Shown: positions 1-37,785 of the stretch, piece after piece
How positions within the stretch are numbered: the first letter of the stretch is position 1
How the letters are laid out: each line of letters begins with the position of its first letter
IMG/VR virus record: IMGVR_UViG_3300020185_000123
Location: 1-37,785 of that record
Length of the DNA: 37,785 nucleotides
Origin: a virus
Direction: 5' to 3' (one strand)
The notes under the pieces: model-generated
Told to the model about the DNA's origin: nothing
The model's database searches: none
What the model saw: only the letters and a program-made list of their open reading frames with translations
Program-made: the position numbers and the translations under genes

Positions 1-2
1 GA

Positions 3-197
3 GAGATCGATACTGGCTACCGAGGCGATTGCAGTGTAAAGATGTATAATTTCTCTAATGTAAGTTATAAATTTAAGAAAGGTGATAAAGTAGCTCAGAT
101 CAAGATTGAGAAGAATTATGATACTACTGTTGAATGGGCTGATGAAGTCGAGGTAGCTGAACGAGGTGAAGGTGGATTCGGATCAACGGGTAAGTAA
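3..197 (+). CDS. dut: dUTPase (C-terminal part, 5' truncated by window)
   Basis: The last 64 residues of a trimeric dUTP diphosphatase, which hydrolyses dUTP to dUMP and PPi, keeping uracil out of DNA and feeding dTMP synthesis. Visible family motifs are IDTGYRGDCSVK (motif III, with the uracil-binding Tyr), GDKVAQI (motif IV) and the C-terminal RGEGGFGSTGK (motif V, the flexible arm that closes over the phosphates). The frame is open from base 3 and ends at TAA 195-197. The start lies outside the window. A dUTPase fits the nucleotide-metabolism set of T4-type phages. Identification is secure from the three motifs; only the N-terminal half is missing. Confidence 0.93.
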   Translation, partial: EIDTGYRGDCSVKMYNFSNVSYKFKKGDKVAQIKIEKNYDTTVEWADEVEVAERGEGGFGSTGK

Positions 198-214
198 TAA
201 AAGCCTAGTAGCAG

Positions 215-370
215 TTATTTTCTACCTAGTCTGCCTTCAGCTATACCATTACTAAACCAATGTAACATAGCACTAAGCAGTGCGTCAGGCCCTGTACTAC
301 CGAACACAGCTTGCAAGTCTGGATTTAAATCGAGGTAATCTTGAGCCATAAGATCAGCATAAAACTGCAT
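215..370 (-). CDS. 51-aa ORF or UGA-readthrough extension of the upstream fibre gene
   Basis: Encodes 51 residues from ATG 370-368 to TAA 217-215. It is in the same frame as the fibre-like gene upstream (stop TGA 400-398), and the frame between that TGA and this ATG is fully open. The sequence, including the residues before the ATG (FDPYLYMQFYADL, then DYLDLNPDL and HWFSNGIAEGRLG), resembles short 'FDP-Y...NPD...H...G..EGR' modules found at the ends of bacterial and phage adhesins. Because the module seems to begin before the ATG, it may be translated as a readthrough extension giving a 536-residue product. Alternatives are a separate small gene, or a C-terminal domain recently cut off by a nonsense mutation. 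No TAAATA motif or Shine-Dalgarno precedes the ATG on this strand. Confidence 0.5.
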   Translation of the reverse strand: MQFYADLMAQDYLDLNPDLQAVFGSTGPDALLSAMLHWFSNGIAEGRLGRK

Positions 371-397
371 ATATAAATAAGGATCAAATTGATTCGG

Positions 398-1825
398 TCA
401 GGTACCGTTATAATATTGGTAAGTAATACCAGCACCGTGTAATGCTTTTAGCTCTGGGCTCGCAGATGAATTCAGCATTGACGGTGCTGAAGATTTAATA
501 TCAGGGTATGTATTAGTACTACTCGTTTGTATAATTTGCAACTCTTTTTGAGACTGAACAGTGATGCTATTAACTGCTATACCGTCCATATTAACTGATA
601 CTAGGCTACCTTGCGAATCTATATTATTAAAAATTAAATTTTCTGCTGGTAAGCTAGTAGCTGGCGGAGGAACCCGTACCCCAATAACGTTAAAGACAGC
701 GTCATATGGCGGGTAGCTACCGCGCACAGTACCGCCTGGTAAGTAAAATTGCATTAAAGTAGGAATGGTGCTTGAGCTCCAGTCAGACCATACATAAGTC
801 GAGCTTTGATTGGATTGGTTATAATAGACACGATATTCAATCACCTCACCTTTATTGTTTGTTTTTAAATCTATATCCGTGACGAATGGGTTAGAACCAT
901 CCCAGAGCTCTTCGGTATCAACAACAGCTTCAGTTCGCATTAAAGAATTCTCAGCATAACCAATACCCCTGTCTACTATTTCAATTGTATGTCCCGTTGT
1001 GAGCACCCAGATGGTCGAGGAGACGCGCCTCAAATCCCAGAGCCAATTCTTAGCTACAAACTTCACTGGTCTACTTTTCACCGTAAATGAGCTGTTACTG
1101 GCAAGGGCTTCTGCTTCTGTTAATGCATATACATCTACTCTTGTTAGCTTATCACTGACTGTTGGTAGGTTATCTTGAGCACCAAATCTATAATAAATAG
1201 GAGCTAGTGGCGTATAGTTAGTATTTATTGTAACTGATATTTGCTCACTAGTATTATCGGTTACGTTTGTGATGGTAATAAGTTTACTACCTCTACTCAA
1301 CGCGGTAAATGATATAGTAACAGATGACTCACCGGCAATGTTTGCAGTTTTAGTATTACCATCTAAATTAACTGAAAATGTAACAGCATCGATGAAATCG
1401 TTTGAAATAGTTACATTTACGCTACCGTTATTATAATCAGCATTATATCTGGTCACTTGAGTACCTCGACCGGTTATAGTAACCTCGCGGCGGTTATATA
1501 ACGGTAGATTTATATTTGTTAATTGTGTACCCGGCGGAGTTGTGTATGACTCATTATACGAATAACTCGCCGCCTTAGCTTGAATTAAATTAATAGACTG
1601 TGGATTCGGATGTAACATACTTTCATTACCGTTAATAACAGTAGCAATAATACCAGTATCCGATGCTACATCAAAATTTAACTCGCCTCCGGATTGATAC
1701 GTATCGAATGAAAATATAGGAGCTAATGGCCATACATGATTATATCCTAACATCATCTTACTAACTTGATTTGTACCTCTATATGCGTTGGATATAGATG
1801 CATTAGTAAAAGCGGGTGATAACAT
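398..1825 (-). CDS. Putative tail fibre / virion structural protein
   Basis: 475 residues, no recognised enzyme motif. The composition is Thr/Ser/Asn-rich and beta-strand-like throughout, typical of phage fibre or adhesin proteins. Residues about 130-200 look like an Ig-like sandwich (alternating Val/Ile/Thr strands such as SVNVTISNDF and ESSVTISF). The start ATG at 1825 is supported by a perfect TATAAATA (1831-1838) exactly 5 nt upstream, so late transcription is expected to begin on the start codon. It is divergent from the clamp-loader gene. It ends in TGA, one of only two TGA stops among about 29 genes here, followed in frame by an open 60-codon extension. Fibre function is inferred from composition and from the late promoter. 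Confidence 0.6.
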   Translation of the reverse strand: MLSPAFTNASISNAYRGTNQVSKMMLGYNHVWPLAPIFSFDTYQSGGELNFDVASDTGIIATVINGNESMLHPNPQSINLIQAKAASYSYNESYTTPPGTQLTNINLPLYNRREVTITGRGTQVTRYNADYNNGSVNVTISNDFIDAVTFSVNLDGNTKTANIAGESSVTISFTALSRGSKLITITNVTDNTSEQISVTINTNYTPLAPIYYRFGAQDNLPTVSDKLTRVDVYALTEAEALASNSSFTVKSRPVKFVAKNWLWDLRRVSSTIWVLTTGHTIEIVDRGIGYAENSLMRTEAVVDTEELWDGSNPFVTDIDLKTNNKGEVIEYRVYYNQSNQSSTYVWSDWSSSTIPTLMQFYLPGGTVRGSYPPYDAVFNVIGVRVPPPATSLPAENLIFNNIDSQGSLVSVNMDGIAVNSITVQSQKELQIIQTSSTNTYPDIKSSAPSMLNSSASPELKALHGAGITYQYYNGT

Positions 1826-1830
1826 ATTAA

Positions 1831-1838
1831 TATTTATA
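1831..1838 (-). promoter_or_regulatory. T4-type late promoter, TATAAATA
   Basis: Exact match to the T4 late promoter core, 5 nt before the ATG at 1825. In T4 the core spans about -13 to -6, which puts +1 on the A of the ATG. Confidence 0.65.
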
Positions 1839-1846
1839 AGTCGGTG

Positions 1847-1874
1847 TTGATATAGTAAGGAACATCTTTATAAT
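1847..1874 (+). promoter_or_regulatory. Sigma70-type promoter for the clamp loader gene
   Basis: TTGATA (1847-1852), 16 nt spacer, TATAAT (1869-1874). The ATG at 1881 begins 6 nt after the -10 box, so +1 should fall on or beside the start codon. There is no Shine-Dalgarno at usable spacing; AAGGA at 1857-1861 is 19 nt away. Confidence 0.65.
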
Positions 1875-1880
1875 AGTAAT

Positions 1881-2795
1881 ATGTTCGATAGCCTGTTTAC
1901 AGAAAAGTATAGACCTAAAACGTTAACTGATTTAGTATTATCTGATAGTAATAGAAAGTATTTTGATTCTATTACTGATGAGATTCCTAATCTGTTATTC
2001 GTCGGTACCCCAGGTATCGGTAAGACTACTTTAGCGCGAATATTAGTTAATGATATTCTAGAATGTCAGTATTTGTATATTAATGCATCTGATGAAAATG
2101 GTATCGATACTATTCGCTCTAAGGTAGTTGGCTTTGCGCAGACTAAGTCTCTCGACGGTAAAGTAAAGGTTGTTATACTTGATGAAGCAGACGGTATCAC
2201 CATTGATGGCCAAAGAGCTCTGCGCAATACGATGGAGGAATATAGTAGTGGTACACGCTTCATCTTAACTGCCAACTATAAGCATAAGATTATACCTGCT
2301 ATTCAAAGTAGAACTCAATTCTTCGATCTCAACCCGCCGTTTGATACTGTATTAAAGCTTATTGTAGGTATTATAAAGCAAGAGGGTATTAAGATTACTG
2401 AAGATCAGAAAAGTAATTTTGTAAACGTAGTAAAGCAGAATTACCCAGATATCCGTAAGATTATCAACAGTGTACAGAAAGCTACAGTTAAAGGTATCTT
2501 TGAAGTTAATGTAGGTTTAGATAGTAAAGAGATAGTAGAGAGAATTCATACTGAGATTCAATCTAAGAATACATTTGGTTTACGGAAGTATCTTATTGAG
2601 AATGAAAACGAGTTTCAAGGTGATTATCATAATCTAATGAAGCAGTATCTAAATTATGTATACGACTCTAGCTTAGATGACAATAAAAAACGTCAATATA
2701 TTGTAACTATTTCAGAGAGTATGGTAAATGACGTCTGGGTGCTAGATAAAGAGATTAATGCTTTTGCGTGCTGGGTTAAATTAGAAAGAATTTAG
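1881..2795 (+). CDS. 44: Sliding-clamp loader ATPase, gp44-like
   Basis: 304 residues; T4 gp44 is about 319. It is the AAA+ large subunit of the clamp loader, which opens the gp45 sliding clamp and places it on primer-template DNA for the replicative polymerase. Visible features: EKYRPKTL at residues 8-15 (typical RFC/gp44 N-terminus), Walker A GTPGIGKTT (42-50), Walker B VVILDEAD (97-104), sensor-1 Asn in LTANY (132) and the SR arginine finger (S143-R144). It is the only replication-complex gene in this stretch and lies alone on the + strand between two structural gene groups. It has its own sigma70-like promoter, consistent with early or middle expression. Its TAG stop overlaps the TAA stop of the convergent gene. 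The small subunit gp62 is not seen here. Confidence 0.93.
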   Translation: MFDSLFTEKYRPKTLTDLVLSDSNRKYFDSITDEIPNLLFVGTPGIGKTTLARILVNDILECQYLYINASDENGIDTIRSKVVGFAQTKSLDGKVKVVILDEADGITIDGQRALRNTMEEYSSGTRFILTANYKHKIIPAIQSRTQFFDLNPPFDTVLKLIVGIIKQEGIKITEDQKSNFVNVVKQNYPDIRKIINSVQKATVKGIFEVNVGLDSKEIVERIHTEIQSKNTFGLRKYLIENENEFQGDYHNLMKQYLNYVYDSSLDDNKKRQYIVTISESMVNDVWVLDKEINAFACWVKLERI

Positions 2796-3412
2796 ATAAG
2801 AAAATAACCTAGTAAAGCTAAGCCAGCACCACCCTTACCTTTAAGGAATTTAGTAATTGCATTTAATGCTTTCAACCACCACGCTTTTTCTCTATTAGGA
2901 TACTTTTCAGTTAACTTATCAGATATATCATTTGCTAGCTGCTGTTTTTCCTCATCAGTTAATGCATCACCTCTTTTAATAGCATCCTGAACTTTATCGT
3001 TAAACGTTGATTCGCCTTCTGCATCAGAAATTTCAGCCGCTTTATCTGCTTTCGCATTACTTTTTGCGAGTATCTTTTCAAGTATTTTTGCAATAACTTT
3101 AACAGCGATAACAGATAAACCTGCACCTGCTAACCACTCGAGTGGATTCGGAAACAATCCAATAAGCCCGCCATCTGGAAAAACTCCAGCAGCGTCTAAC
3201 GCGTTGTTTACATATTCAGGATCACTAATTGCCTGGCTCACCGCACTTCCATCAAATCTACTTAGGGCTTCGATTGGTGTGCCTATGCTTTCATTAATAA
3301 AAATATTTGAAATATTCTCAACTATAACATCTTCACTTGCATTGCTAGCTAGTTGCTCGTTAATTACATTATTAAATTGAGTATCTGTATAATGTTGCTT
3401 AAATGTCTTCAT
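2792..3412 (-). CDS. Hypothetical protein with hydrophobic central segment
   Basis: 206 residues, not recognised. N-terminal part MKTFKQHYTDTQFNNVINE is helical and acidic, similar in style to small T4-like marine phage proteins. Residues about 70-120 contain ALDAAGVFPDGG followed by a hydrophobic stretch (LAGAGLSVIAVKVIAKIL), then a charged Lys/Ala/Glu-rich helical region, and a glycine-rich hydrophobic C-terminus (GKGGAGLALLGYFLI). The ALD-AG-xP-xG pattern is shared with the next gene upstream and resembles the hydrophobic 'pre-toxin' linker found in secreted proteins. It is the last gene of a four-gene minus-strand operon and overlaps the gene before it by 14 nt, suggesting translational coupling. 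It could be an internal or ejected virion protein; this is inference. Confidence 0.72.
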   Translation of the reverse strand: MKTFKQHYTDTQFNNVINEQLASNASEDVIVENISNIFINESIGTPIEALSRFDGSAVSQAISDPEYVNNALDAAGVFPDGGLIGLFPNPLEWLAGAGLSVIAVKVIAKILEKILAKSNAKADKAAEISDAEGESTFNDKVQDAIKRGDALTDEEKQQLANDISDKLTEKYPNREKAWWLKALNAITKFLKGKGGAGLALLGYFLI

Positions 3413-3812
3413 ATGAGTATTTTTCTAGATATTTCTTGTATTCACTGTCGAATTTTTTTACCGGCTCATCATCTTTATAATTCTTATAGCCTTTAGCAGC
3501 AACTTTACCCGCTCTGATACTTTTAATAGCTGCTTTTGTAGCTGGTACACCTAACTTGCGAATTTTAAAGATTTTTAATATATCTCCAAATGGTATAATA
3601 GATAAAGTACTAATACCAGCGTTTATTAAATGTTTCTTACGATCATCTTTCTCTTTAGCTGCAGCTGCTCTTAGTGTAGAGATAACTGCGTTAGAACCAT
3701 CAGCAAACGCACCTATAGTTGGTTCCAAACCAGCAACGTCTAAAGCTGTTTGAATAACGTTTAAAGTCCTACTGAAATCTTCTTCAATCACCGGAGGGTT
3801 ATCAGATTGCAT
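3399..3812 (-). CDS. Hypothetical protein with pre-toxin-like segment
   Basis: 137 residues. Residues about 20-75 read ALDVAGLEPTIGAFADGSN..., then HLINAGISTLSIIPFGDILK. This closely matches the pattern of the pre-toxin (PT-TG-type) domain: 'DxxGxxPxxGxxADxxNA...NAGLSxxSxIPxxGD'. That domain usually links a delivery module to a toxin, but no toxin domain follows here; the C-terminus is short, basic and Tyr/Lys-rich. The ATG overlaps the TAA of the upstream gene (TAATG), with a GAGGG Shine-Dalgarno-like sequence about 6 nt before the start. The similarity is judged by eye, and a role as a membrane-active virion protein is only a hypothesis. Confidence 0.72.
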   Translation of the reverse strand: MQSDNPPVIEEDFSRTLNVIQTALDVAGLEPTIGAFADGSNAVISTLRAAAAKEKDDRKKHLINAGISTLSIIPFGDILKIFKIRKLGVPATKAAIKSIRAGKVAAKGYKNYKDDEPVKKFDSEYKKYLEKYSYEDI

Positions 3813-4090
3813 TAGTAGCCCTCTTCGTCGCTTACTCTTATCTCTCCAGCTTTATCTAGAGCTGCTTGTCCGAGCTTCTGAAGCTGCTCTGATGTAAGAT
3901 AGTTGAGAGCTTTCATTAAACCGTCTAATCCAATCCCAGTACCTTTTGCTATTGCACCGGTAGCAGCAAGACCTGTCTTTGCAGCAGCCCTACCAGTCAT
4001 CTTTGCAGCACCTTTTGCGAAATCGCCGAGCTTACCTTCTTGGATCTGGCAATATGCCTCTTCTAATAGTCGTGTATCGTTGTTTTTCAT
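3812..4090 (-). CDS. Small Ala/Gly-rich amphipathic protein
   Basis: 92 residues from ATG 4090. A longer reading to 4222 in the same frame would overlap the upstream gene by 128 nt and adds a basic, unlike N-terminus, so the start just after the upstream stop (TAA at 4097-4095) is preferred. The N-terminus MKNNDTRLLEEAYCQIQEG is a type seen on small virion proteins of T4-like marine phages. Residues about 22-60 form an Ala/Gly/Lys-rich run (KGAAKMTGRAAAKTGLAATG) with small-residue spacing typical of membrane-associated or packed helices. The stop overlaps the next gene's start by one base. Function unknown; its neighbours suggest a shared role with the two following genes. Confidence 0.72.
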   Translation of the reverse strand: MKNNDTRLLEEAYCQIQEGKLGDFAKGAAKMTGRAAAKTGLAATGAIAKGTGIGLDGLMKALNYLTSEQLQKLGQAALDKAGEIRVSDEEGY

Positions 4091-4094
4091 AAAA

Positions 4095-4685
4095 TTATCC
4101 GTTGATTGGCATATACTGCGAAGTATAGCTTTCGTTAACCGCAGGTGATGGAGTAGCAGACTTCGAAGGGATCTTTGTATTCTTACTAGCGTTAGAAAGA
4201 TTTGACTTCTTAAGGCTATCACCTTGCTGGGTCATTGTTTGTTGCTGCTCTTCGTTTTCTTCCGGCTTGGCTGGATCGATTTGAACCTTATTATCATACT
4301 TAACTGAATCAGGTACTGGAGAACCGAATGATATATCTTCTTCTTCAACCTTTAAAATATCAGAAGGTACTGTAACTGCGTTCTGATTATCATATAAGCC
4401 ATTAGTTAATTCTACTGCAACGTCGACAAAAAACGAGTCAGCTCTGTTATCTGAATTAGCTGGGGCTCTAGAACCGTTATCTGTCTTAACATTGATAACT
4501 TTCTTATTAAGATCGTTGCCAGTAAACATATCTTCGATATATTTCTTTACATCGTCGGATAGACCTTTAAAGGAGTCTTTACTCTTATACCCAGATACTA
4601 ACGATACACGATCACCGACTAAAATACCGCCGTTAGTCATTTTTTGGATTGTACTTTCAATTAAATTTAAAAACTTATGTGACAT
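4095..4685 (-). CDS. Conserved T4-like phage structural-type hypothetical
   Basis: 196 residues. The N-terminus (KFLNLIESTIQKMTNGGIL, then VGDRVSLVSGYKS) has the 'helix, TNGGxLxGDxVxL' pattern that I associate with conserved hypothetical, probably virion, proteins of marine T4-like phages. The middle is acidic and the last 60 residues are low-complexity (Gln/Ser/Lys/Thr/Pro), likely disordered. It is the first gene of the minus-strand operon 4685 to 2792. The start is supported by AATAAATA (4691-4698) exactly 5 nt upstream. The function is not known to me. Confidence 0.75.
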   Translation of the reverse strand: MSHKFLNLIESTIQKMTNGGILVGDRVSLVSGYKSKDSFKGLSDDVKKYIEDMFTGNDLNKKVINVKTDNGSRAPANSDNRADSFFVDVAVELTNGLYDNQNAVTVPSDILKVEEEDISFGSPVPDSVKYDNKVQIDPAKPEENEEQQQTMTQQGDSLKKSNLSNASKNTKIPSKSATPSPAVNESYTSQYMPING

Positions 4686-4690
4686 ATTAT

Positions 4691-4698
4691 TATTTATT
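4691..4698 (-). promoter_or_regulatory. Late-promoter-like AATAAATA
   Basis: Seven of eight bases match TATAAATA; spacing to the ATG at 4685 is 5 nt. It likely drives the four-gene operon 4685-2792. Confidence 0.55.
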
Positions 4699-4721
4699 GT
4701 TTTTTGTTAATTATTCTATAG

Positions 4722-4729
4722 CTTAAATA
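4722..4729 (+). promoter_or_regulatory. Late-promoter-like CTTAAATA
   Basis: TAAATA core with 8 nt to the ATG at 4738, the loosest spacing but one of the set. Weaker match to the T4 late consensus. Divergent from the 4691-4698 motif. Confidence 0.4.
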
Positions 4730-4737
4730 TTATTATA

Positions 4738-5220
4738 ATGGCTACGTTGAATTTAGATATATTAAAACAGGAAAAGGTTTTAGATCAGGAAGAATCTAGT
4801 ATCATATATAAGGATCTTCATTTAGATATTAAACAAAGATACCCTCTTAGGAGCGAGCTTGAGAAAAAATTCCAAGTGAATGATATTATTGCGGATGATA
4901 ACATAGATGCTATAAGTAATGCTTTTATTAGTCTACTAACAACGAGTCCGGGGGAAAAGATATTAAACCCTCTATTTGGGATTAATTTCGGTGATTTACT
5001 TTTTTTACCAGTAACTGAAGTTCGTGCAGATGTTATAGGTAAAAACATTATATCTAATATGGAAAAATTTGAACCAAGGATAAAATTAATATCCCTTACA
5101 ATAACTCCAATTATAGATGATCAGGAATATGAATGTGATTTTATATATACAATTCCACGATTTAATAATAGTGCTTTAAATCTTAAGGGTAAACTTAGCA
5201 GCTCAGGATTTTATATATAA
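4738..5220 (+). CDS. 25: Baseplate wedge subunit gp25-like
   Basis: 160 residues; T4 gp25 is 132. The protein belongs to the gp25/GpW-type sheath-initiator family, a baseplate wedge protein that contacts gp6 and starts sheath assembly. Residues about 40-110 carry the family pattern: an N-terminal helix (DNIDAISNAFISLLTTSPGEK), then the RNP/LNPxFG-like loop (LNPLFGINFGDLLF), a helix (ADVIGKNIISNMEKFEPRIKL) and a terminal beta-hairpin. It lies 8 nt before a gp6-like gene, which is the typical gp25-gp6 order in T4-type phages and strengthens both calls. It is the first gene of the long + strand structural block. Confidence 0.88.
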   Translation: MATLNLDILKQEKVLDQEESSIIYKDLHLDIKQRYPLRSELEKKFQVNDIIADDNIDAISNAFISLLTTSPGEKILNPLFGINFGDLLFLPVTEVRADVIGKNIISNMEKFEPRIKLISLTITPIIDDQEYECDFIYTIPRFNNSALNLKGKLSSSGFYI

Positions 5221-5223
5221 ATA
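5216..5223 (+). promoter_or_regulatory. T4-type late promoter, TATAAATA
   Basis: Perfect core overlapping the stop codon of the gp25-like gene; 5 nt to the ATG at 5229, so +1 is expected on the ATG. Confidence 0.65.
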
Positions 5224-5228
5224 TTATT

Positions 5229-7061
5229 ATGGCTTTTGCTGATACTGATTTTTCGCTTCCAAGAGATGCATATGCAACCTTCGATGCACTTACTCTTAAG
5301 AACCTTATAAAGCAAAGGCTCACGCAAGGTGGGGTATTTACAGATCAAGACTTCGAAGGTAGTAATCTGTCGTCTATTATTGATATAATAGCGTTTTCAT
5401 ATCATCTATCATTATTCTACTTGAATCAGACAGCATCTGAAGCATTGTTTGACGAGGCAACTTTATTCGAAAATATAAATAGAGTAACAAAGCTTATAGG
5501 ATATAATCCGACAGGTTATAAGACTTCTGTAATGTCCTTTGACGCAACTGCAAGTGAGCTGTTGCCTCTTAATATTTATACCATTAAAAGATTCTCATAT
5601 TTTAATATTAATGGTGTAGATTTTTCCTTTACTAGAGACGCCACATTTACAAAAACTACCGATGTAACTGAAAGATTAGCAACATTATCTGATCAAAATT
5701 TATTATATCAAGGTAAATATTTTGAGCATCCGGTACAGACTGCAATTGGCGAAGATTTTGAAATTACATCTTTAGTCGTTAAAGATACGGTTAATAAGCG
5801 CGCAATTAACATTGAACATGATAGTATTAACGTTTTTGTCAAGAGATTCAATGATGATAAGTATATTGAGTTTATTGAGGTTAATTCAATATTTGACCAA
5901 GATAGTTCAACATACGCGTTTGAAAAAAGATTAAACGAAAACGGATTTTATGAATTAAAATTTGGTAATAATGTTAATGGAGTTAAACTAGAGGCAGGGG
6001 ACAATGTATATATATACTACTTAAAGAGTGATGGCGGTAAGGGTGTTGTTGCAGCTAATACTCTTAACGGTAACAATATAAATATTTTTACTAGTAATCA
6101 ATTTGAAGCAATCTCTAAATACATATATTCTACTAATACATTATTTTTAACTCCTAATATAGCTACTAATATTTCATTTACTAATAATTTTGAATCAACT
6201 AACCCTGCTGAAATAGAAACTGTAGATCAAATAAAAGCTAATTCACCAAAAACGTTTTTTGCTCAAAATAGATTAGTAACAGTAAATGACATAGATACAT
6301 TTATTAATAAGAAATATTCAAATATTGTTGCTAGCTCTGTATCAGTTAATAATAGCTCGTATGTCGATAATGTTATAAAATATTATTATGATTTAGGTCT
6401 AGATCGACCTAATGATGATCCGAGATTTTTATTTAATCAAGTTAAATTTAGTAGTTCGTCGCAGTTAAACTCAGTTCACTTGTTCTTAGTGCCACGGCTT
6501 AAGACTGTAGATGCCAGCAATCAGCCGTTTTTCTTGACTAGCTCGCAAAAATCTGAAATCCTAAATTCTATGGAATTTAGTAAAATGTCAAACATGGAAA
6601 TAGTACCTCATGATCCTATTTATAATGCTATAACTGTTGGGTTGCAGCTACCTGGAGTTCAGCCTGATATTACTGATATAGATAATACATATATTGTTAT
6701 AAGCCGGGTTATTAATGAGAGATTTAGCGCAGTTAAAATTAAAGAAAGAGTTGATAATATTTTTAAGCAGGTCTTCGCGGTTGGCAGTGCAGAACTAGGT
6801 CAAACTATTAACGTTAGTGATATATCTGCAGAAATATTAGCTATTCCAGGCGTGCAGAGCATTACTACTAGGTTAGTAGATGCTAATAACAATATTATCC
6901 GCGAAGTGCCTTTCTTAAACTTGTATTCTTTTAATGTAATATATAGTGACGTAGATATCGAGTCTACATCATCTAATATCACATTACCATACTTCAAGTA
7001 TCCATTCTTATACAATACAACATTATCAGATCGAATTATCGTTGAAACCGTTAATATATAA
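5229..7061 (+). CDS. 6: Baseplate wedge subunit gp6-like
   Basis: 610 residues; T4 gp6 is 660. It is the baseplate wedge protein that forms the inner dimeric ring and corresponds to the gpJ-type baseplate proteins of simpler phages. The N-terminal region (LRQ-like TLKNLIKQRLTQGGVFTD, then GSNLSSIIDIIAFSYHLSLFY) matches the gp6 opening: an amphipathic helix, 'D..YEGSNxSxxIDxxAY...', and a region of tail-like helices. The middle has a repeated beta domain (YAFEKRLNENGFYELKFGN, an 'F.DG' type hairpin). The C-terminal part contains VGQTINVSDISAEI-like and 'IPGVQSITTRLVD', typical of baseplate J/gp6. Adjacent to gp25, with its own TATAAATA. The TAA overlaps the next ATG by one base (TAATG). Confidence 0.88.
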   Translation: MAFADTDFSLPRDAYATFDALTLKNLIKQRLTQGGVFTDQDFEGSNLSSIIDIIAFSYHLSLFYLNQTASEALFDEATLFENINRVTKLIGYNPTGYKTSVMSFDATASELLPLNIYTIKRFSYFNINGVDFSFTRDATFTKTTDVTERLATLSDQNLLYQGKYFEHPVQTAIGEDFEITSLVVKDTVNKRAINIEHDSINVFVKRFNDDKYIEFIEVNSIFDQDSSTYAFEKRLNENGFYELKFGNNVNGVKLEAGDNVYIYYLKSDGGKGVVAANTLNGNNINIFTSNQFEAISKYIYSTNTLFLTPNIATNISFTNNFESTNPAEIETVDQIKANSPKTFFAQNRLVTVNDIDTFINKKYSNIVASSVSVNNSSYVDNVIKYYYDLGLDRPNDDPRFLFNQVKFSSSSQLNSVHLFLVPRLKTVDASNQPFFLTSSQKSEILNSMEFSKMSNMEIVPHDPIYNAITVGLQLPGVQPDITDIDNTYIVISRVINERFSAVKIKERVDNIFKQVFAVGSAELGQTINVSDISAEILAIPGVQSITTRLVDANNNIIREVPFLNLYSFNVIYSDVDIESTSSNITLPYFKYPFLYNTTLSDRIIVETVNI

Positions 7062-31464: not shown

Positions 31465-32291
31465 TGAAAGATATCTATTTCAACTCCTCAATGCCTAGAG
31501 CCTGTAGTACATTACTACAGAATATTTTTAATCAGAATCCTGATTTTTATGCTACCCCTACTGATGGTGCTTTAGAGTTATTAGCTGGGGCAAGAGAGAG
31601 ATTTACAAATTCATCTGAGTTTAAAGCCGCAGTTGATCAGGATCTTGCATTACAATCTTGGCGTAGCTTTTGTAGAGGAGGTTTAAACGAATATGTAAAC
31701 ACCTTAACCGATAGACCAAATATTGTGTTAAAGAGTAGGGGCTGGAAAGGTAATGTTAAATGGGTAGAAAATATTCTTGAAGCTAAGCCTAAAATATTCT
31801 GCATGGTTAGAGACTTAAAGTGTATAGCAGCATCGTTCGAGAAGCTACACAGAAAGAATCCAGATAAAACATCTCAATGGTTAATTGAATCTGAAGTTAG
31901 AGGTACAACGGTCTTTAAGAGAACTGATATGTATATGAAAAATATGCCAGTTAATATATCTTTAGATAGAATTCAAGAGTTAATTGAGATGGGATTAGAT
32001 GGTAGTGTAATGTTTATACGAGCAGAAGATTTAACTTCAAGACCTCAAGAAATAATGGATGAGGTATATAAGGTATTAGAGGTAAAGTCATACATACATA
32101 ACTTTGATAACATCGAACAAACAACTAAAGAGAACGACGTGATACATGCATTAGACAATGATCTACACACTATACGTAAGAAGGTAGAGCCTCTAGTAAA
32201 TGATTCAGAAGAAATATTAGGAGAAGCTGCTTGTAACTTTATCGATACTGAATATGCGTGGTATCAGAGGTATTTCGGCTATATTAGCTAG
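31464..32291 (+). CDS. PAPS-dependent sulfotransferase
   Basis: 275 residues, typical size. The N-terminal SMPRACSTLLQN (9-20) is the 5'-phosphosulfate binding loop of sulfotransferases (usual form 'xPRSGTTxLxxxL'), and IFCMVRDLKCIAASFEKLHR (111-130) carries the 3'-phosphate-binding Arg116 and Ser124. The enzyme should transfer sulfate from PAPS to a sugar or protein hydroxyl. The acceptor is unknown; translational coupling to the glycosyltransferase suggests a glycan. Last gene of the 29338-32291 operon; its end overlaps the convergent YadA-like fibre gene by 8 nt. Sulfotransferase genes are known from marine T4-like phages. Confidence 0.85.
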   Translation: MKDIYFNSSMPRACSTLLQNIFNQNPDFYATPTDGALELLAGARERFTNSSEFKAAVDQDLALQSWRSFCRGGLNEYVNTLTDRPNIVLKSRGWKGNVKWVENILEAKPKIFCMVRDLKCIAASFEKLHRKNPDKTSQWLIESEVRGTTVFKRTDMYMKNMPVNISLDRIQELIEMGLDGSVMFIRAEDLTSRPQEIMDEVYKVLEVKSYIHNFDNIEQTTKENDVIHALDNDLHTIRKKVEPLVNDSEEILGEAACNFIDTEYAWYQRYFGYIS

Positions 32292-35200
32292 CTGCTGTAA
32301 TAATACCATTTGTAACAGTAATTGATGTGCACCCAGCAATATCACCGGTAAATCCATTACCAGCAGCGATTGTACCTTGAGCTGTTAAATTATTAACAAA
32401 CGTTGTACAAGCTGCACTTGATGTTATATTACTACCGATAATAAATGATTCTGTATGAGCTGAAAGTATTACATTAGTTGTACCTCCTAAGATCGCAGAA
32501 AAGTTAGCGCAAGCTGTATTACGACAACCACCAACTACGCTAGAACTATCGCCGCTAGCTTCATTACCATAATAACCGCCACCACCACCAACAAATGAAT
32601 AACCACCACTAGCTGTATTACCCTGATAACCACCACCACCAACCACGACTGATCTAAGACCGCGCGCCAGATTATTAACACCACCACCTACAAATGAAGT
32701 ATCACCACAAGCTGTATTACGATGACCACCAGCTACGTTAGAGAAAAAACCATTAGCGCAATTTTTATAACCACCACCTACAAATGAATAATTACCACAT
32801 GCTATATTAAAATAACCACCAGCAACAGTATCACTACCATCACATGCTTTATTATTAGAACCACCTGCAACGTTAGAGTAACATCCGAATGCATAATTAT
32901 AAGTACCGCCAGCTACGTTAGAAAAGTCACATAAAGCTTTATTACTACTACCACCAGCTACGTTAGAGAAACATCCGCTAGCTGTATTAGAACAACCACC
33001 ACCTACGAATGAACTTTCGGCGCTAGCGCTGTTACAAGCACCACCAACTACAGCTGATCTATCACCAGTAGCAATATTTTTACCACTGTAACCAATACAA
33101 CAACCACCACCACCGACGAATGAATTTTCGCCGCTAGCTATGTTACTATAACCACCGGCTACAGTAGAGTAACGTCCGCTAGCTGTACCACTTAAACCAC
33201 CAGCTACATTAGAATAATTACCGATAGCTTGATTACTTTTACCACCACCAATAAATGCATTATGACCGCTTAAACCAATTGGATATGGCTCATCAGGAGC
33301 TCCAGATAATGCTGGGTTAGTACCGGTATAATTTAATTCGCCACCAGCTACAATTGAACGATTACCGCTTGCTGAGTTACAGCGACCACCAACTACGCTA
33401 GAACTATCGCCGCTAGCTATGTTATAGTAACCATTACCTACAAATGCATAAAAATTGCATGCTTTATTAAGAGTACCATTAACAACAGCAGTATTCATTC
33501 CATTTGCTCTATTACCAAGACCATTCCCAATAAATGAATAATCATCTTGAGCGCAATTACTAAAACCACCAGCTACATTAGATTGTAAACCGGTAGCTGC
33601 ATTATATGCACCACCAGCTACGTTAGAACAATTACCGCGAGCTGCGTTAAACTTACCACCAGCTATGTTTGAATGTGTACCACATGCTATATTAAATAAT
33701 CCACCGGCTACATTTGAATAAGCACTCATCGCTCTATTACCAGAACCACCAGCAATGGTTGAGAAATTACCACCAGCAATGTTAGAATCTCCAGGTGTAT
33801 AAGAACTACCACCTCCAACAAATGAAAAGGCACCAGATGCTACATTTTCAAAACCACCTCCAACGAATGAAGAAGCTCCAGATGCTACATTACCGCAACC
33901 ACCGGCTACAGCTGAACAATTACCGCTAGCTTGATTATTATTACCACCTCCAATAAACGATTGACTGCTTAATGCTCTATTATTGGTACCTCCAGCGACA
34001 GTAGCCTGACTAGCGCAAGCTCGATTACCACTACCGCCTCCAATAAATGAACCGGAACCACCAGCGATGGAATTAGACGACCCACCAGCGATAGTTGAAT
34101 AACTACTACAATTGCAATTATAGTATCCATGTAATATAACTGCGCCATCATAAAAACCGCTACCGCTATTAACTGTGTTATACGCACCACCACCTACGGT
34201 ATCCAAACTACCAATGGCGGAATTTTCAAAACCACCAGCTACGTTAGACCGGCAACCGCTAGCGCAATTATTATTACCACCAGCTACATTAGAGGTATAA
34301 CCGCTAGCTGCATTATTAGCGCCACCAGCAACATTTGCAAAATCATTACTGACTGTATTACCAAAACCACCAGCTACATTAGAGTTAATACCACTAGCTG
34401 TATTACTAGAACCACCAGCTACGTTAGAATAATTAGCAGTTGCTGAGTTACAGCGACCACCGCCAATAAATGAACCAGTACTAAGTGCTGTATTACATGT
34501 ACCCCCGGCTATAGTAGCGCCATTACTATTTACTTTATTATAGCATCCACCTCCAATAGTACCATGAGTGCCTAACGAGTATATTTTATTTTTAGCTCCA
34601 CCGCCAATTGTTGTACAATATGTAAATGACTCATTGCAATAACCACCACCAATAACATTATATTGGCCTGTAGAGGCATTATCTACCCCACCTCCAATAG
34701 TTGAACCTATACCGGCAGCGCTGTTTGAATGGCCACCTCCAATAGTTGATCTTGCAGAGGTTGTGCAATTGAATGTACCTCCCCCTATTACACTATCAGT
34801 ATTGCCAGTTCTATTCCATCTACCCCCAGTGATTGAACTGCCGGATAGGACGATTTGATTATTACTACCACCACCTATAAATGAATTTGAAGCACTTAAA
34901 AATATTGTATTATTATTGCCACCGACAATACTCGAGTTAGCTCCAGATATAGCGGAGTTTAGCCCTCCACCAATAAACCCGTTAGAGTCTAAGACCGTAT
35001 TCGAAAACGCATTGCCTATTATCTGCGCGGCAGATATATTACCAACACTTAAACTACGGGAGGTGGTATTGCCGGATTCTAAAACTGAATCAATATTACC
35101 ACTACCAGTTGACTGGGTAATAAATATATCGGTTAAATTCTGACCTCCAGATATATATCCTATTGAATTAATACCAGTTGGGATGTCAAACTTATTTGCC

Positions 35201-35613
35201 GCAATAGTGTTATCAACGGATAACATATTAGTAGTAGTGTTACCGTTATCGGTTATTTGCTGCAGATTACCTAAGCCTGATAATCCTGTGTTTATTAAAC
35301 TTGTGACATCTATACCACCTGATATCAATCGACCACAAGTACTCATATCACCGGCAGCAGTTATATTATTTGAGGCGTTTAAATTTCTAGACCCGATATT
35401 CTCAGTAACGTTTAAGCAGCCGGTTACATTTATATCACCTGTTGTGCAAAAGAAAGGTGCGTCTGTTATAACAAAAGATTGAATTTTAGTAAGATCTGTA
35501 CGAACTGTATCTAAGCCCGAAATACACGTCGGGGTAACCTGGTCAATAATAAAATTTTCATCTCCTCTCAAGTCTCCTGAGATGCTTAAGTCCGTTATAC
35601 GTTTGTTTGCCAT
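32284..35613 (-). CDS. YadA-like trimeric fibre with about 50 beta-helix repeats
   Basis: 1109 residues. Residues 1-45 form an adaptor (KRITDLSISGDLRGDENFII). Residues about 200-1060 consist of some 50 tandem units, mostly 16 residues, with consensus x-N-x-A-S-G-x-x-S-x-V-A-G-G-x-x. This resembles the left-handed trimeric beta-roll of YadA/Hep_Hag heads, where the repeat is usually 14. Three parallel chains would build a long rod. Unusually many Cys sit at fixed repeat positions (for example NCASGCRSNVAGG and CGNYSFVGG). The C-terminus (ITVTNGIITAAS) is short and lacks a membrane anchor, as expected for a virion fibre. TATAAATA lies 7 nt upstream. The call is firm for fold class, inferred for role. 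Confidence 0.82.
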   Translation of the reverse strand: MANKRITDLSISGDLRGDENFIIDQVTPTCISGLDTVRTDLTKIQSFVITDAPFFCTTGDINVTGCLNVTENIGSRNLNASNNITAAGDMSTCGRLISGGIDVTSLINTGLSGLGNLQQITDNGNTTTNMLSVDNTIAANKFDIPTGINSIGYISGGQNLTDIFITQSTGSGNIDSVLESGNTTSRSLSVGNISAAQIIGNAFSNTVLDSNGFIGGGLNSAISGANSSIVGGNNNTIFLSASNSFIGGGSNNQIVLSGSSITGGRWNRTGNTDSVIGGGTFNCTTSARSTIGGGHSNSAAGIGSTIGGGVDNASTGQYNVIGGGYCNESFTYCTTIGGGAKNKIYSLGTHGTIGGGCYNKVNSNGATIAGGTCNTALSTGSFIGGGRCNSATANYSNVAGGSSNTASGINSNVAGGFGNTVSNDFANVAGGANNAASGYTSNVAGGNNNCASGCRSNVAGGFENSAIGSLDTVGGGAYNTVNSGSGFYDGAVILHGYYNCNCSSYSTIAGGSSNSIAGGSGSFIGGGSGNRACASQATVAGGTNNRALSSQSFIGGGNNNQASGNCSAVAGGCGNVASGASSFVGGGFENVASGAFSFVGGGSSYTPGDSNIAGGNFSTIAGGSGNRAMSAYSNVAGGLFNIACGTHSNIAGGKFNAARGNCSNVAGGAYNAATGLQSNVAGGFSNCAQDDYSFIGNGLGNRANGMNTAVVNGTLNKACNFYAFVGNGYYNIASGDSSSVVGGRCNSASGNRSIVAGGELNYTGTNPALSGAPDEPYPIGLSGHNAFIGGGKSNQAIGNYSNVAGGLSGTASGRYSTVAGGYSNIASGENSFVGGGGCCIGYSGKNIATGDRSAVVGGACNSASAESSFVGGGCSNTASGCFSNVAGGSSNKALCDFSNVAGGTYNYAFGCYSNVAGGSNNKACDGSDTVAGGYFNIACGNYSFVGGGYKNCANGFFSNVAGGHRNTACGDTSFVGGGVNNLARGLRSVVVGGGGYQGNTASGGYSFVGGGGGYYGNEASGDSSSVVGGCRNTACANFSAILGGTTNVILSAHTESFIIGSNITSSAACTTFVNNLTAQGTIAAGNGFTGDIAGCTSITVTNGIITAAS
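32420..34990 (-). repeat. 48-bp periodic coding repeats in YadA-like fibre
   Basis: DNA shows recurring blocks such as ccaccagctacgttaga at many sites with a 48-bp period, matching the 16-residue protein unit. Variation is concentrated between the AGG/GGG turns. Boundaries approximate. Confidence 0.75.
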
Positions 35614-35620
35614 TTAATAA

Positions 35621-35628
35621 TATTTATA
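35621..35628 (-). promoter_or_regulatory. T4-type late promoter, TATAAATA
   Basis: Perfect core, 7 nt to the ATG at 35613; predicted 2-nt leader for the YadA-like fibre. It lies just beyond the stop of the preceding gene. Confidence 0.6.
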
Positions 35629-35630
35629 GT

Positions 35631-35906
35631 TTAATCTTCATATTCACTACTATCTTCATCTAAATAATCTATATAGCTATCAACAAATTGAGGTGAGCTA
35701 GCTACAACTGTCATTATACCAGGTGTTAGCTCCTTTACAAACGTGATATCCAGCAGTAAGATGTCAGATTTTAAAATCTTGAAAATTTCATCCAAATAAT
35801 CTACCTGCACCTCTAATAGAATTGTATCTCTCTCGTAATCAACGAAATAATCATCGGTAAATTCACTAATATTACCCTTGACGTCAAAAAATATATCTTC
35901 AACCAT
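35631..35906 (-). CDS. Small acidic hypothetical protein
   Basis: 91 residues, not recognised, strongly acidic (Asp/Glu-rich, ending DYLDEDSSEYED). Predicted mixed alpha/beta with strands DTILLEVQVDY and DILLLDITFV. No Cys, no membrane segment. Located directly before the YadA-like fibre gene, so it could be a fibre chaperone or adaptor, but nothing in the sequence proves this. GATAAATA lies exactly 5 nt before the ATG. Confidence 0.65.
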   Translation of the reverse strand: MVEDIFFDVKGNISEFTDDYFVDYERDTILLEVQVDYLDEIFKILKSDILLLDITFVKELTPGIMTVVASSPQFVDSYIDYLDEDSSEYED

Positions 35907-35911
35907 ATAGA

Positions 35912-35919
35912 TATTTATC
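35912..35919 (-). promoter_or_regulatory. Late-promoter-like GATAAATA
   Basis: Seven of eight bases match TATAAATA, 5 nt to the ATG at 35906. It sits in a 34-nt divergent gap that also holds the promoter of the + strand gene. Confidence 0.55.
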
Positions 35920-35926
35920 GGAACTA

Positions 35927-35935
35927 TGATATAAT
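35927..35935 (+). promoter_or_regulatory. Extended -10 promoter TGATATAAT
   Basis: TGnTATAAT extended -10 (35927-35935), 5 nt before the ATG at 35941; no good -35 needed or seen. It places +1 near the start codon. Confidence 0.5.
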
Positions 35936-35940
35936 AATGT

Positions 35941-36351
35941 ATGGCTAGAAAGAAAAAGATATATAATTACGAGTTTATTGATTGCAAGCAATCTTTACCG
36001 AGTTCTGTGTTGGTTAAATGCTCCAAGACAGGCGAACAGGTAAGGATGTACCATAAGCAATTAATTAAGCTTATACAAAATAAGTATCGCAATAACTGGA
36101 GCTTATTCAAAGCGTCTTATATTAAGAAAGGTAATAAGACTGATCCTGATGTTGATACTAGTGAAGAGTATAATACGCGCCCGGAAGGCTATCGTAAATA
36201 TCTCATTACTAGCTATATGTGGTTCAAGCAAGAGATAGGTCTGGATGCATCACAAAAAGCAGCAAAGTTAGAGTTTCTGGATAAGTGCTATTACAATCGC
36301 TGGGGCGAGGGATTAGAGCAGGTAATAGCTAGAGCTGATATGGAACTATAA
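35941..36351 (+). CDS. Hypothetical basic protein
   Basis: 136 residues, not recognised. It opens with a basic run (MARKKKIYNYEF), has a CKQSLPSSVLVKCSKTGEQVRMY segment with a pair of Cys (too few for a clear zinc site), then a Lys/Arg/Tyr/Trp-rich helical region (LIKLIQNKYRNNWSLFKASYI) and an acidic C-terminal helix. The overall basic character could suit nucleic-acid binding. Followed after 4 nt by a small membrane protein gene. An extended -10 promoter just upstream suggests early or middle expression, unlike the divergent late gene. Confidence 0.68.
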   Translation: MARKKKIYNYEFIDCKQSLPSSVLVKCSKTGEQVRMYHKQLIKLIQNKYRNNWSLFKASYIKKGNKTDPDVDTSEEYNTRPEGYRKYLITSYMWFKQEIGLDASQKAAKLEFLDKCYYNRWGEGLEQVIARADMEL

Positions 36352-36355
36352 TATA

Positions 36356-36520
36356 ATGAAGAAGATATTATACGATATTGGTGTAATATTGTGCATTGCA
36401 GCAGTCTTACCGCTCATCGCAGTTTGGTCCGGAATTGTTGCAATGTATTATACATGCACAGCTTTACCTGGAGATCTCTTAGCTCTTGCCGAGAGAATAT
36501 ATTACGATAAGGAACAGTGA
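36356..36520 (+). CDS. 54-aa single-span membrane protein
   Basis: 54 residues: MKKILYDIGV, then a hydrophobic stretch of about 22 residues (ILCIAAVLPLIAVWSGIVAM), then a short polar tail ending YYDKEQ. Likely an inner-membrane protein with a short N-terminal positive segment, either anchored or a signal-anchor. It starts 4 nt after the previous gene, so it is probably in the same transcript. It ends in TGA, and that TGA is also the TG of the extended -10 box of the next promoter. No family recognised; a small lysis-related or host-membrane protein is possible. Confidence 0.6.
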   Translation: MKKILYDIGVILCIAAVLPLIAVWSGIVAMYYTCTALPGDLLALAERIYYDKEQ

Positions 36521-36605
36521 TATAATTGTTATGTAAGAAAGATTAATAACAAACCCAATAATATATGAACTTAAATTATACAGCTACAGACTTCAAGAAA
36601 GTATC
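36518..36605 (+). repeat. Left copy of duplicated promoter and gene start
   Basis: Contains TGATATAAT (36518-36526), an A/C-rich leader, and ATG plus 12 further codons. The coding part is 38 of 41 bases identical to 37439-37479; the promoter and leader are also similar. The right copy is at 37390-37479. Homology stops sharply after GTATC. Confidence 0.8.
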
Positions 36606-36621
36606 CGAAAAGTACCGGTAA
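36565..36621 (+). pseudogene. Truncated 5' remnant of the RadA/RecA-like gene
   Basis: ATG 36565 to TAA 36619-36621 encodes only MNLNYTATDFKKVSEKYR. The first 13 codons match the start of the ATPase gene at 37439 with three base changes (two silent, one Thr to Ala), then sequence diverges and stops. It is the orphaned front end of the same gene, separated from the rest by the GIY-YIG endonuclease gene. A translated 18-residue peptide is possible but unlikely to be functional. Confidence 0.78.
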
Positions 36622-36622
36622 T

Positions 36623-36650
36623 ATAGCGTCGATATGATAGCGTCGGTATA
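36623..36650 (+). repeat. 14-nt tandem repeat, two copies
   Basis: ATAGCGTCGATATG followed at once by ATAGCGTCGGTATA (two mismatches). It lies between the gene remnant and the endonuclease start, and the second unit overlaps the endonuclease's late promoter. Confidence 0.6.
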
Positions 36651-36654
36651 AATA
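36647..36654 (+). promoter_or_regulatory. T4-type late promoter for the homing endonuclease
   Basis: Perfect TATAAATA, 7 nt to the ATG at 36662. Late expression of homing endonucleases is known in T4 (for example I-TevI). Confidence 0.6.
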
Positions 36655-36661
36655 TATATAT

Positions 36662-37408
36662 ATGATTGGATTTATATATGAAACGACGAACTTAATAACT
36701 AACCAAAAATATATAGGTAAAAGGCAGACTAATTGGGGTAAGCATAAAATCGATGAGTATCTCGGAAGCAGTAAATTGCTTCGTGAAGATATAATAAAGT
36801 ATGGTAAAGAGAATTTTTTACGAGAGATCATCGACACCGCTGAAACTAAAGAAGAGTTAGCAGAACTCGAGGTAAAATATTTAAAAGATAGAGATGTAGT
36901 ACGTAAGGATGACTACTACAATAAATCAATCCCTAGAACCGCATGGTGGAAAGATGGTTGGCATCAGAGATCAAAACAATCTCCAGAGTTAATAGAAAAA
37001 AGAGCGAGTAAAATGAGAGGTGTTAAGAGAGATAAATACAATATGACTGTAAAGTTTCGAAATATGACTGCAGAAAGATCAGCTCAAATTATAGAGCTAC
37101 ATGAGCAGGGTATGACCCCGTGGCAGATACAGAGCGAAATTAAATATAACGCTGTAAGTGTAGGGGAATTCTTAAAATCAAAAGGGTTTACCCCTAATAA
37201 AAGTAGAGGCAAACAATTGATATGGACTAAAACGCAAGAAGAGGAACTAATAAGATTATATAAAAGCGGTTACTCGTCAACTCAGCTAGCTAATCATACC
37301 GGTAGGACTGTCACTAGAATTACAGATAAATTAAAAGAACTTAACATGTCTATTAGAGACTCTAATTGGTATAAGAGTAATCGGAACACTGATATAATTA
37401 TAGAGTAA
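36662..37408 (+). CDS. GIY-YIG homing endonuclease, free-standing
   Basis: 248 residues. The GIY-YIG nuclease domain covers about residues 1-95: GFIYETTN (3-10) for GIY, KYIGK (16-20) for YIG, YLGSSKLLREDIIKYGKENF (33-52), a probable metal-binding Glu in LAELEVKYL (about 67-73) and YYNKS (85-89). A basic linker follows. C-terminal DNA-binding parts: AERSAQIIELHEQGMTPWQI (a helix-turn-helix) and WTKTQEEELIRLYKSGYSST...TGRTVTRITDKLKEL (a second, Myb/recombinase-type helix-turn-helix). It is flanked by duplicated copies of the next gene's promoter and start, which points to insertion by homing. Its own last codons contain the promoter for that gene. Confidence 0.88.
   Translation: MIGFIYETTNLITNQKYIGKRQTNWGKHKIDEYLGSSKLLREDIIKYGKENFLREIIDTAETKEELAELEVKYLKDRDVVRKDDYYNKSIPRTAWWKDGWHQRSKQSPELIEKRASKMRGVKRDKYNMTVKFRNMTAERSAQIIELHEQGMTPWQIQSEIKYNAVSVGEFLKSKGFTPNKSRGKQLIWTKTQEEELIRLYKSGYSSTQLANHTGRTVTRITDKLKELNMSIRDSNWYKSNRNTDIIIE
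37390..37398 (+). promoter_or_regulatory. Extended -10 TGATATAAT inside the endonuclease 3' end
   Basis: TGATATAAT lies within the last codons of the endonuclease gene (the Thr-Asp-Ile-Ile codons) and is the right-hand copy of the promoter at 36518-36526. It should drive the ATPase gene with a leader of about 34 nt. Confidence 0.55.
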
Positions 37409-37479
37409 CAAATATTAACAATAACAATACTAATATATATGAACTTAAATTACGCAGCTACCGACTTCAAGAAAGTATC
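37390..37479 (+). repeat. Right copy of duplicated promoter and gene start
   Basis: Pairs with 36518-36605. It holds the extended -10 box, an A/C-rich leader and the first 13 codons of the ATPase gene. Confidence 0.8.
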
Positions 37480-37785
37480 AGATATCGTCATTCCGGAAAT
37501 TTTCTTCCGTAGATACAAAAGCGGTATTACCTCGATCGACGAATTGTTCGGTGAAGGGATTTTACCTGGTTCATCAATTACGATGTGTGCTTCTGCTGGT
37601 TGTGGTAAGACTACGCTACTATTGCAAATCTTAGAAGGTTTTGCTGCAAATGATTACGCTACTGCTTATGCTTCAGGTGAAGAAAATACAGCTCAGTTAG
37701 CGTTTACTTGCAATCGTATCGGTGTTAAGAATGTAGCAGTTGCTAATATGACTGATATTGATGATTTAGCTGCTCAGATGGAGCA
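37439..37785 (+). CDS. RadA/RecA-like ATPase (3' truncated by window)
   Basis: 115 residues visible. KSGITSIDELFGEGILPGSS (27-46) is the RadA/Sms and KaiC-type entry to the RecA fold ('TGxxxLDxxLGGGIxPGS'). Walker A is ASAGCGKTT (51-59). AYASGEENTAQLAFTCNRIG (77-96) matches the RadA 'YVSGEES..QI..RA.RL' block. Such proteins remodel recombination intermediates or act as RecA/UvsX-type recombinases; which of the two cannot be told from this part. No zinc finger is present at the N-terminus, unlike bacterial RadA. The first 13 codons are duplicated at 36565. The rest lies outside the window. Confidence 0.82.
   Translation, partial: MNLNYAATDFKKVSDIVIPEIFFRRYKSGITSIDELFGEGILPGSSITMCASAGCGKTTLLLQILEGFAANDYATAYASGEENTAQLAFTCNRIGVKNVAVANMTDIDDLAAQME

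Follow-up and report, generated by a model that had tools for sequence, protein, structure and literature searches.

Endonuclease ORFs that lie beside a duplicated end of a host gene are known from fungal mitochondria as mobile ORFs (mORFs), where mostly 3' ends are involved (PMC3630166); examples are atp6 of Allomyces macrogynus and atp6, atp9, cox2 and nad3 of Glomus sp., in which the differences between the copies are largely synonymous, a horizontal origin has been inferred and mobility of the element has been reported (PMC3630166). The Tremella-kind intron with a host-gene-end duplication is likewise a mobile element whose host gene fragment replaces the interrupted part, in this case borne on an intron and without a promoter. 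In phage T4, the free-standing endonuclease genes segG, segA, segE, mobB and mobC contain the promoters of their downstream genes within their own ORFs, which favors retention of the endonuclease, and the available part of that account describes these genes as intergenic insertions, with no dead 5' gene stub found in the description (PMC2988022). T4 also provides an endonuclease within a phage gene, mobA at the gene 39-60 split, where a 50-nt bypass element has been proposed as a change acting against cleavage (PMC5009743). Finally, engineered home-and-rescue gene drives, which are synthetic, CRISPR-based and used in animals, combine a nuclease with a recoded rescue of the target gene (PMC7968924). 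A search of the open-licence literature returned no description of phage endonucleases with duplicated gene ends, which is not proof of absence.

The window analyzed here is the whole of a 37,785-base IMG/VR virus fragment (IMGVR_UViG_3300020185_000123) from an uncultured phage. Its last 1.3 kb holds, in order, a 54-aa ORF, a promoter-like motif, a stub, a GIY-YIG ORF, another promoter-like motif and the beginning of a radA-like gene (Table 1). An earlier, sequence-only reading had described two copies of a segment flanking the GIY-YIG gene, the left a dead stub and the right the start of the gene, with the right promoter written within the last codons of the endonuclease; all of this is borne out, and the radA-like frame stays open to the window end. 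The same reading knew of no standard name for the arrangement, and here the mORFs correct it: as in mORFs, an endonuclease ORF lies within a gene beside a duplicated gene end, a second, in-frame copy replaces the native end and restores the gene (115 codons are visible before it runs into the contig end), and the native end is left cut off as a remnant. Unlike mORFs, which replace a 3' end and need no promoter, the window replaces a 5' end, with promoter and start, and does so in a phage; since carboxy-terminal (3') replacement is absent, the window is a variant, not a member, of the mORF kind. The Tremella kind is intron-borne, whereas an Rfam search over 35600-37785 gave zero matches up to E=5, so that a group I intron in the window was ruled out and the mark of a self-splicing intron is missing. 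The window shares with the T4 seg and mob genes the downstream promoter inside the endonuclease ORF; T4 gene 39-60 remains split, with a bypassed insert as its proposed protection, whereas in the window a second start restores the gene. With the engineered drives the likeness is one of logic only, an analogy and not kinship.

Table 1. Features at the right end of the window, and loci with flanking duplications beside other phage GIY-YIG endonucleases (positions are those of the window or of the locus named).
Feature	Position	Strand	Basis or remark
Small membrane-like ORF, 54 aa, ending YYDKEQ-stop, native upstream neighbor	36356..36520	+	stop overlaps left promoter
Left promoter copy GGAACAGTGATATAAT, native radA promoter, now 5' of endonuclease	36511..36526	+	exact motif GGAACNNNGATATAAT
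Leader, left copy	36527..36564	+	alignment to right leader beats all 500 shuffles
Dead radA-like 5' stub, ATG 36565, 18 residues, 14 homologous codons, MNLNYTATDFKKVSEKYR-stop	36565..36621	+	sequence
Putative inserted element, 874 bp: endonuclease, replacement promoter, leader, first 14 codons	36609..37482	+	removal gives single-copy L003/L065/L066 arrangement
GIY-YIG homing endonuclease ORF, 248 aa, SegE-like catalytic domain and C-terminal HTH	36662..37408	+	
Right promoter copy GGAACACTGATATAAT, within last codons of endonuclease ORF	37383..37398	+	exact motif
Leader, right copy	37399..37438	+	resembles L062-L064 leaders
Putative replacement radA-like 5' end, codons 1-14 and two bases	37439..37482	+	
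RadA/KaiC-like ATPase gene, ATG 37439, open at window end	37439..37785	+	Pfam KaiC ATPase 4e-8
L249 (IMGVR_UViG_3300035666_000856), 5' type	2451-3718		stub MIFNKIKELKAAGLKIGITFSIG-stop; GIY-YIG ORF 2550-3242; cytidylyltransferase-like gene restarts at 3239
L276 (IMGVR_UViG_3300028048_000089), 5' type	2820-4330		39-residue stub with QPNSGA; GIY-YIG ORF 3001-3984
L250 (IMGVR_UViG_3300032311_000372), possible 5' type, DUF6267 gene	2902-4901		both start copies look frame-disrupted near EHIEDE
L149 (IMGVR_UViG_3300043104_000118), 3' type	849-1841		terminase-like gene with replaced C-terminus; endonuclease 962-1735
L279, 3' type	1946-3697		ribonucleotide reductase small subunit gene
L275, 3' type	2552-3690		gene of unknown kind
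L054 (IMGVR_UViG_3300043435_000315), 3' type	106-853		37-nt, 97% duplicate of upstream gene's end (QPELIDMLLSL-stop)
L012 (IMGVR_UViG_3300012979_001189), 3' type	1-2511		major capsid-like gene (named from its sequence), intact 3' end

We put at roughly 60% the probability that a free-standing GIY-YIG endonuclease invaded the radA-like gene after codon 14 and brought with it a replacement 5' end from a related allele. The enzyme, or its ancestor, would most likely have broken an empty radA near codon 14, within about codons 10-20, and repair from a donor would have brought in the endonuclease together with the promoter, the leader and the first few codons of that donor. What is now the upstream stub would be the native start, its old promoter probably driving the endonuclease, while the imported copy, joined to the 3' end of the endonuclease and possibly derived from another phage, would drive and start the working radA.

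The two copies (36511-36608 and 37383-37482) are each about 98-100 nt long and comprise the promoter, the leader and the first 14 codons of the radA-like gene, with two further bases; the duplication that had been proposed is thus real, although its size was underestimated at 88-90 bp and 13 codons. Comparison of the flanks by blastn gives 101 columns at 82% identity (E=3e-24), and the coding part taken separately gives 48 nt at 92% (E=3e-16). Outside the promoter core, the left and right leaders align with a score of 28 against a maximum of 26 among 500 shuffles, and since this exceeds every shuffle the copies have more in common than a promoter motif; the motif alone as the source of the similarity was ruled out, the leader and 14 codons matching too. 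Where the coding parts overlap (from 36565 on the left and over 37439-37482 on the right), 40 of 44 nt are identical and four codons have changed, three of them silently (TAT/TAC, ACA/ACC and TCC/TCA) and one not (ACA/GCA, T/A). The differences are therefore mainly silent, as had been claimed, and finding at least three silent changes among four has P=0.02 against random change, with only four changes to count. If the enzyme recognizes the region around codon 14, the 5' duplication would recreate an uninterrupted target at the right junction and the right copy would, by this logic, have to differ in order to survive; the silent changes may accordingly reduce re-cutting.

The same four changes bear on whether the insertion instead copied the phage's own 5' end by aberrant break repair, the copies diverging afterwards. 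In keeping with such an internal duplication, the copies agree with one another at 40/44 coding nt, whereas the best relative reaches 33/42. A dead stub would be expected to drift, yet three of the four differences are silent, and in the comparable locus L249, described below, the stub and the working start come from different lineages; we therefore regard an internal duplication as quite unlikely.

Searches with the radA product returned 9 and then 80 loci; full-length homologues of the gene are AAA_25/KaiC and DnaB-like/phrog_26214. A test suggested with the sequence-only reading was that relatives lacking the endonuclease should carry one copy and an unbroken junction, and three relatives do: L003 (the same contig as L060), L065 and L066 each have a single promoter and a single, intact start of radA, and the genes upstream are those of the window, an ORF beginning MARKKK and a small ORF ending in DKEQ, NKEQ or NEQ. 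In L065 and L066 the small ORF has the same position and ending (DKEQ-stop or NKEQ-stop) and the same +7 overlap of stop and promoter as in the window, and the spacer AGT of the left promoter is identical in L003, L065 and L066. Because the left copy adjoins this ancestral neighbor, whose stop overlaps the promoter as it does in L065 and L066, the left copy is the native one and the right copy was added. The ends of the inserted element can be placed only to within a few bases, at the shared GTATCnGA. The earlier suggestion that the insertion restores function with a recoded 5' end is thus partly upheld, by the single-copy empty relatives and the intact frame, whereas its word recoded finds weak support in only four changes, and the scores of the native and the added copy against the nearest relatives (33 and 31 of 42 bases) are too close to separate the two. 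A duplication like the one in the window is present in none of the 78 radA relatives in which it could be tested (best E about 0.006). In L002 (5747-5950), closely related to the empty site, the space that separates the small ORF from radA holds another, different small ORF (MEKEYNLTFNSMFGF..), which has a promoter motif of its own; insertions may therefore have entered this slot repeatedly.

The window contains three exact copies of the promoter motif GGAACNNNGATATAAT, at 35920, 36511 and 37383, and a fourth copy, with a single mismatch, at 36342. A slightly looser form lies upstream of 22 of the 80 radA relatives, and for 16 of these 22 the gene before it has its stop codon between -8 and +24 relative to the motif; given how common this is among the relatives, overlap of stop and promoter is a habit of the family and nothing special to the endonuclease.

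The endonuclease matches Pfam SegE_GIY-YIG (1e-12) and the homing endonucleases of phrog_314 (2e-26). The best match of its predicted fold is the I-TevI catalytic domain (1ln0), with a probability of 1.00 though E=0.02, and the model, although the alignment behind it is shallow, has high confidence over most of the GIY-YIG domain (residues 1-90) and at an HTH around 190-230; the catalytic domain is thus predicted to be intact. The model shows residues 234-248, whose codons run across the right promoter, as disordered, and a search for relatives of the C-terminal domain found none. With a GIY-YIG domain, its own start and stop, and endonuclease-free alleles at the same site, the gene has the properties of a free-standing SegE-type endonuclease. 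A T4-type late promoter (TATAAATA) at 36647, 5' of the endonuclease, was rejected as a chance-level motif (15 occurrences in the window against 14.3 expected), as was a regulatory hairpin ahead of the gene, whose folding is no better than that of shuffles (z=+1.1). The latter result, together with the lack of an Rfam match, also speaks against retention of the stub for a function of its own, such as that of a leader coupling or attenuating the translation of the endonuclease, which starts 41 nt further on. The open frame of the stub and its end shortly 5' of the endonuclease start would suit such a role, but the stubs of the comparable loci L249 and L276 show no relationship in length or sequence. 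We consider this function improbable, although it would be compatible with invasion by the endonuclease.

The main rival to that invasion is a one-sided recombination with a donor in which an intergenic endonuclease already lay 5' of its own promoter and radA. The recipient radA, broken after codon 14, would have been joined illegitimately to the left of the endonuclease, while the right crossover took place by homology inside radA, so that the second start is simply the donor gene's own. A single illegitimate junction then suffices; intergenic endonucleases that contain a downstream promoter are normal in T4 (PMC2988022), and the right leader resembles the ordinary radA leaders of L062-L064. 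An attempt to trace the donor of the right copy found the bases before the right promoter alike at 7-8 of 12 positions in L063 and L064, too weak to count. With the present relatives, no shift in affinity is detectable at codon 14 between right codons 1-14 and the remainder of radA, as this recombination would have it. The same T4 account places the usual cut site of free-standing enzymes away from the insertion site (PMC2988022), which counts against invasion with a replacement 5' end, as do the near-equal distances of the two window copies from the nearest relatives and the position of the remainder of radA beyond the contig end. Relatives of the window endonuclease are, however, found upstream of radA in none of the 80 loci, and the L249 working start matches lineages other than that of the syntenic allele, though the gene body there does not discriminate; we judge the one-sided recombination somewhat unlikely.

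The arrangement is not unique to the window, as judged from the sequences of other loci. For related GIY-YIG ORFs in IMG/VR and in eleven isolate-phage regions, the flanks on the two sides were compared under one uniform rule, which found an adjacent same-strand flanking duplication at 10 of 189 endonuclease ORFs (the window included); among 569 control ORFs there were 6 (Fisher P=0.0014). The rule takes any flanking similarity, and some control matches may be other mobile genes. For the same reason L037 and L272 were counted without a gene end being recognized there. One control, L283, has two unannotated ORFs (3460-4194 and 4232-5230) with adjacent duplications at their borders, which may be another mobile gene. 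Sorted by eye, the 5' cases besides the window are L249, L276 and, weakly, L250, and the 3' cases are L149, L279, L275, L054 and, with a longer gap, L012 (Table 1). These independent contigs with the same anatomy also speak against the possibility that the locus is an assembly chimera of two strains at a repeat near the contig end. The window is a single metagenomic contig with the repeat less than 0.4 kb from its end, and the exact shared 5' sequence, used as a query in IMG/VR, returned no close relative and no independent record; copies just 82-92% identical would nevertheless make a poor seed for a mis-join, and such a chimera is very unlikely.

The clearest case for an imported gene end is L249, whose new ATG shares bases with the endonuclease stop codon. 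Its gene was compared with 79 relatives, of which L320 is the syntenic allele without the insertion. L320 agrees with the L249 stub at 53 of 63 bases and with the working start at 44 of 63, while the best matches of the working start are other lineages, at 49-50 of 63; this indicates that the working end of the L249 gene was imported. The pattern is that reported for the Allomyces and Glomus mORFs (PMC3630166), and by the same sequence measure a foreign 5' end is much better supported by L249 than by the window. In L276, the new start of the QPNSGA-containing gene (3962) lies within the last codons of the endonuclease.

Among the 3' cases, the endonuclease of L149 is followed by an orphan copy of the gene's last 34 codons (DIADSVVGSLFNAV..); Pfam gives no match for this gene, and the name terminase-like is a reading of its sequence. 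The L054 duplicate lies at the end of the GIY-YIG ORF and directly past it. L012 is nearer than the window to the Tremella-kind intron: after its gene comes a group I intron-like RNA (E=4e-9, short of the Rfam cutoff) with a GIY-YIG ORF, which is open only with TGA read as W, and then a dead 58-codon copy of the gene's end, with 18 silent against 5 amino-acid-changing codons. Its gap is longer because the ORF reads through two TGA codons.

From these cases we put forward, tentatively, that homing endonucleases of phages repeatedly move as natural home-and-rescue cassettes, each a nuclease with a recoded, cleavage-resistant replacement end of the gene that it cuts, either a 3' end or a promoter-carrying 5' end. 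A selfish nuclease could then sit inside a coding sequence with neither intron nor intein, the broken gene end being replaced; coding sequence would be invaded without death of the gene, loss of the nuclease would be costly, and foreign gene ends would spread among phages. In the 5' version the element carries the promoter, so that deleting it would cost the gene its start, and the element would be fixed in place. If general, such cassettes would explain scattered dead stubs near phage endonucleases and the mosaic N- and C-termini of phage genes, and would be a natural counterpart to engineered rescue drives, with resistance of the recoded copy to cutting as the key prediction.

Elsewhere in the window, the minus strand at 32284-35613 encodes a 1109-aa protein with many degenerate repeats (e.g. 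SNVAGGSNNxASG), likely a repetitive fiber or surface protein.
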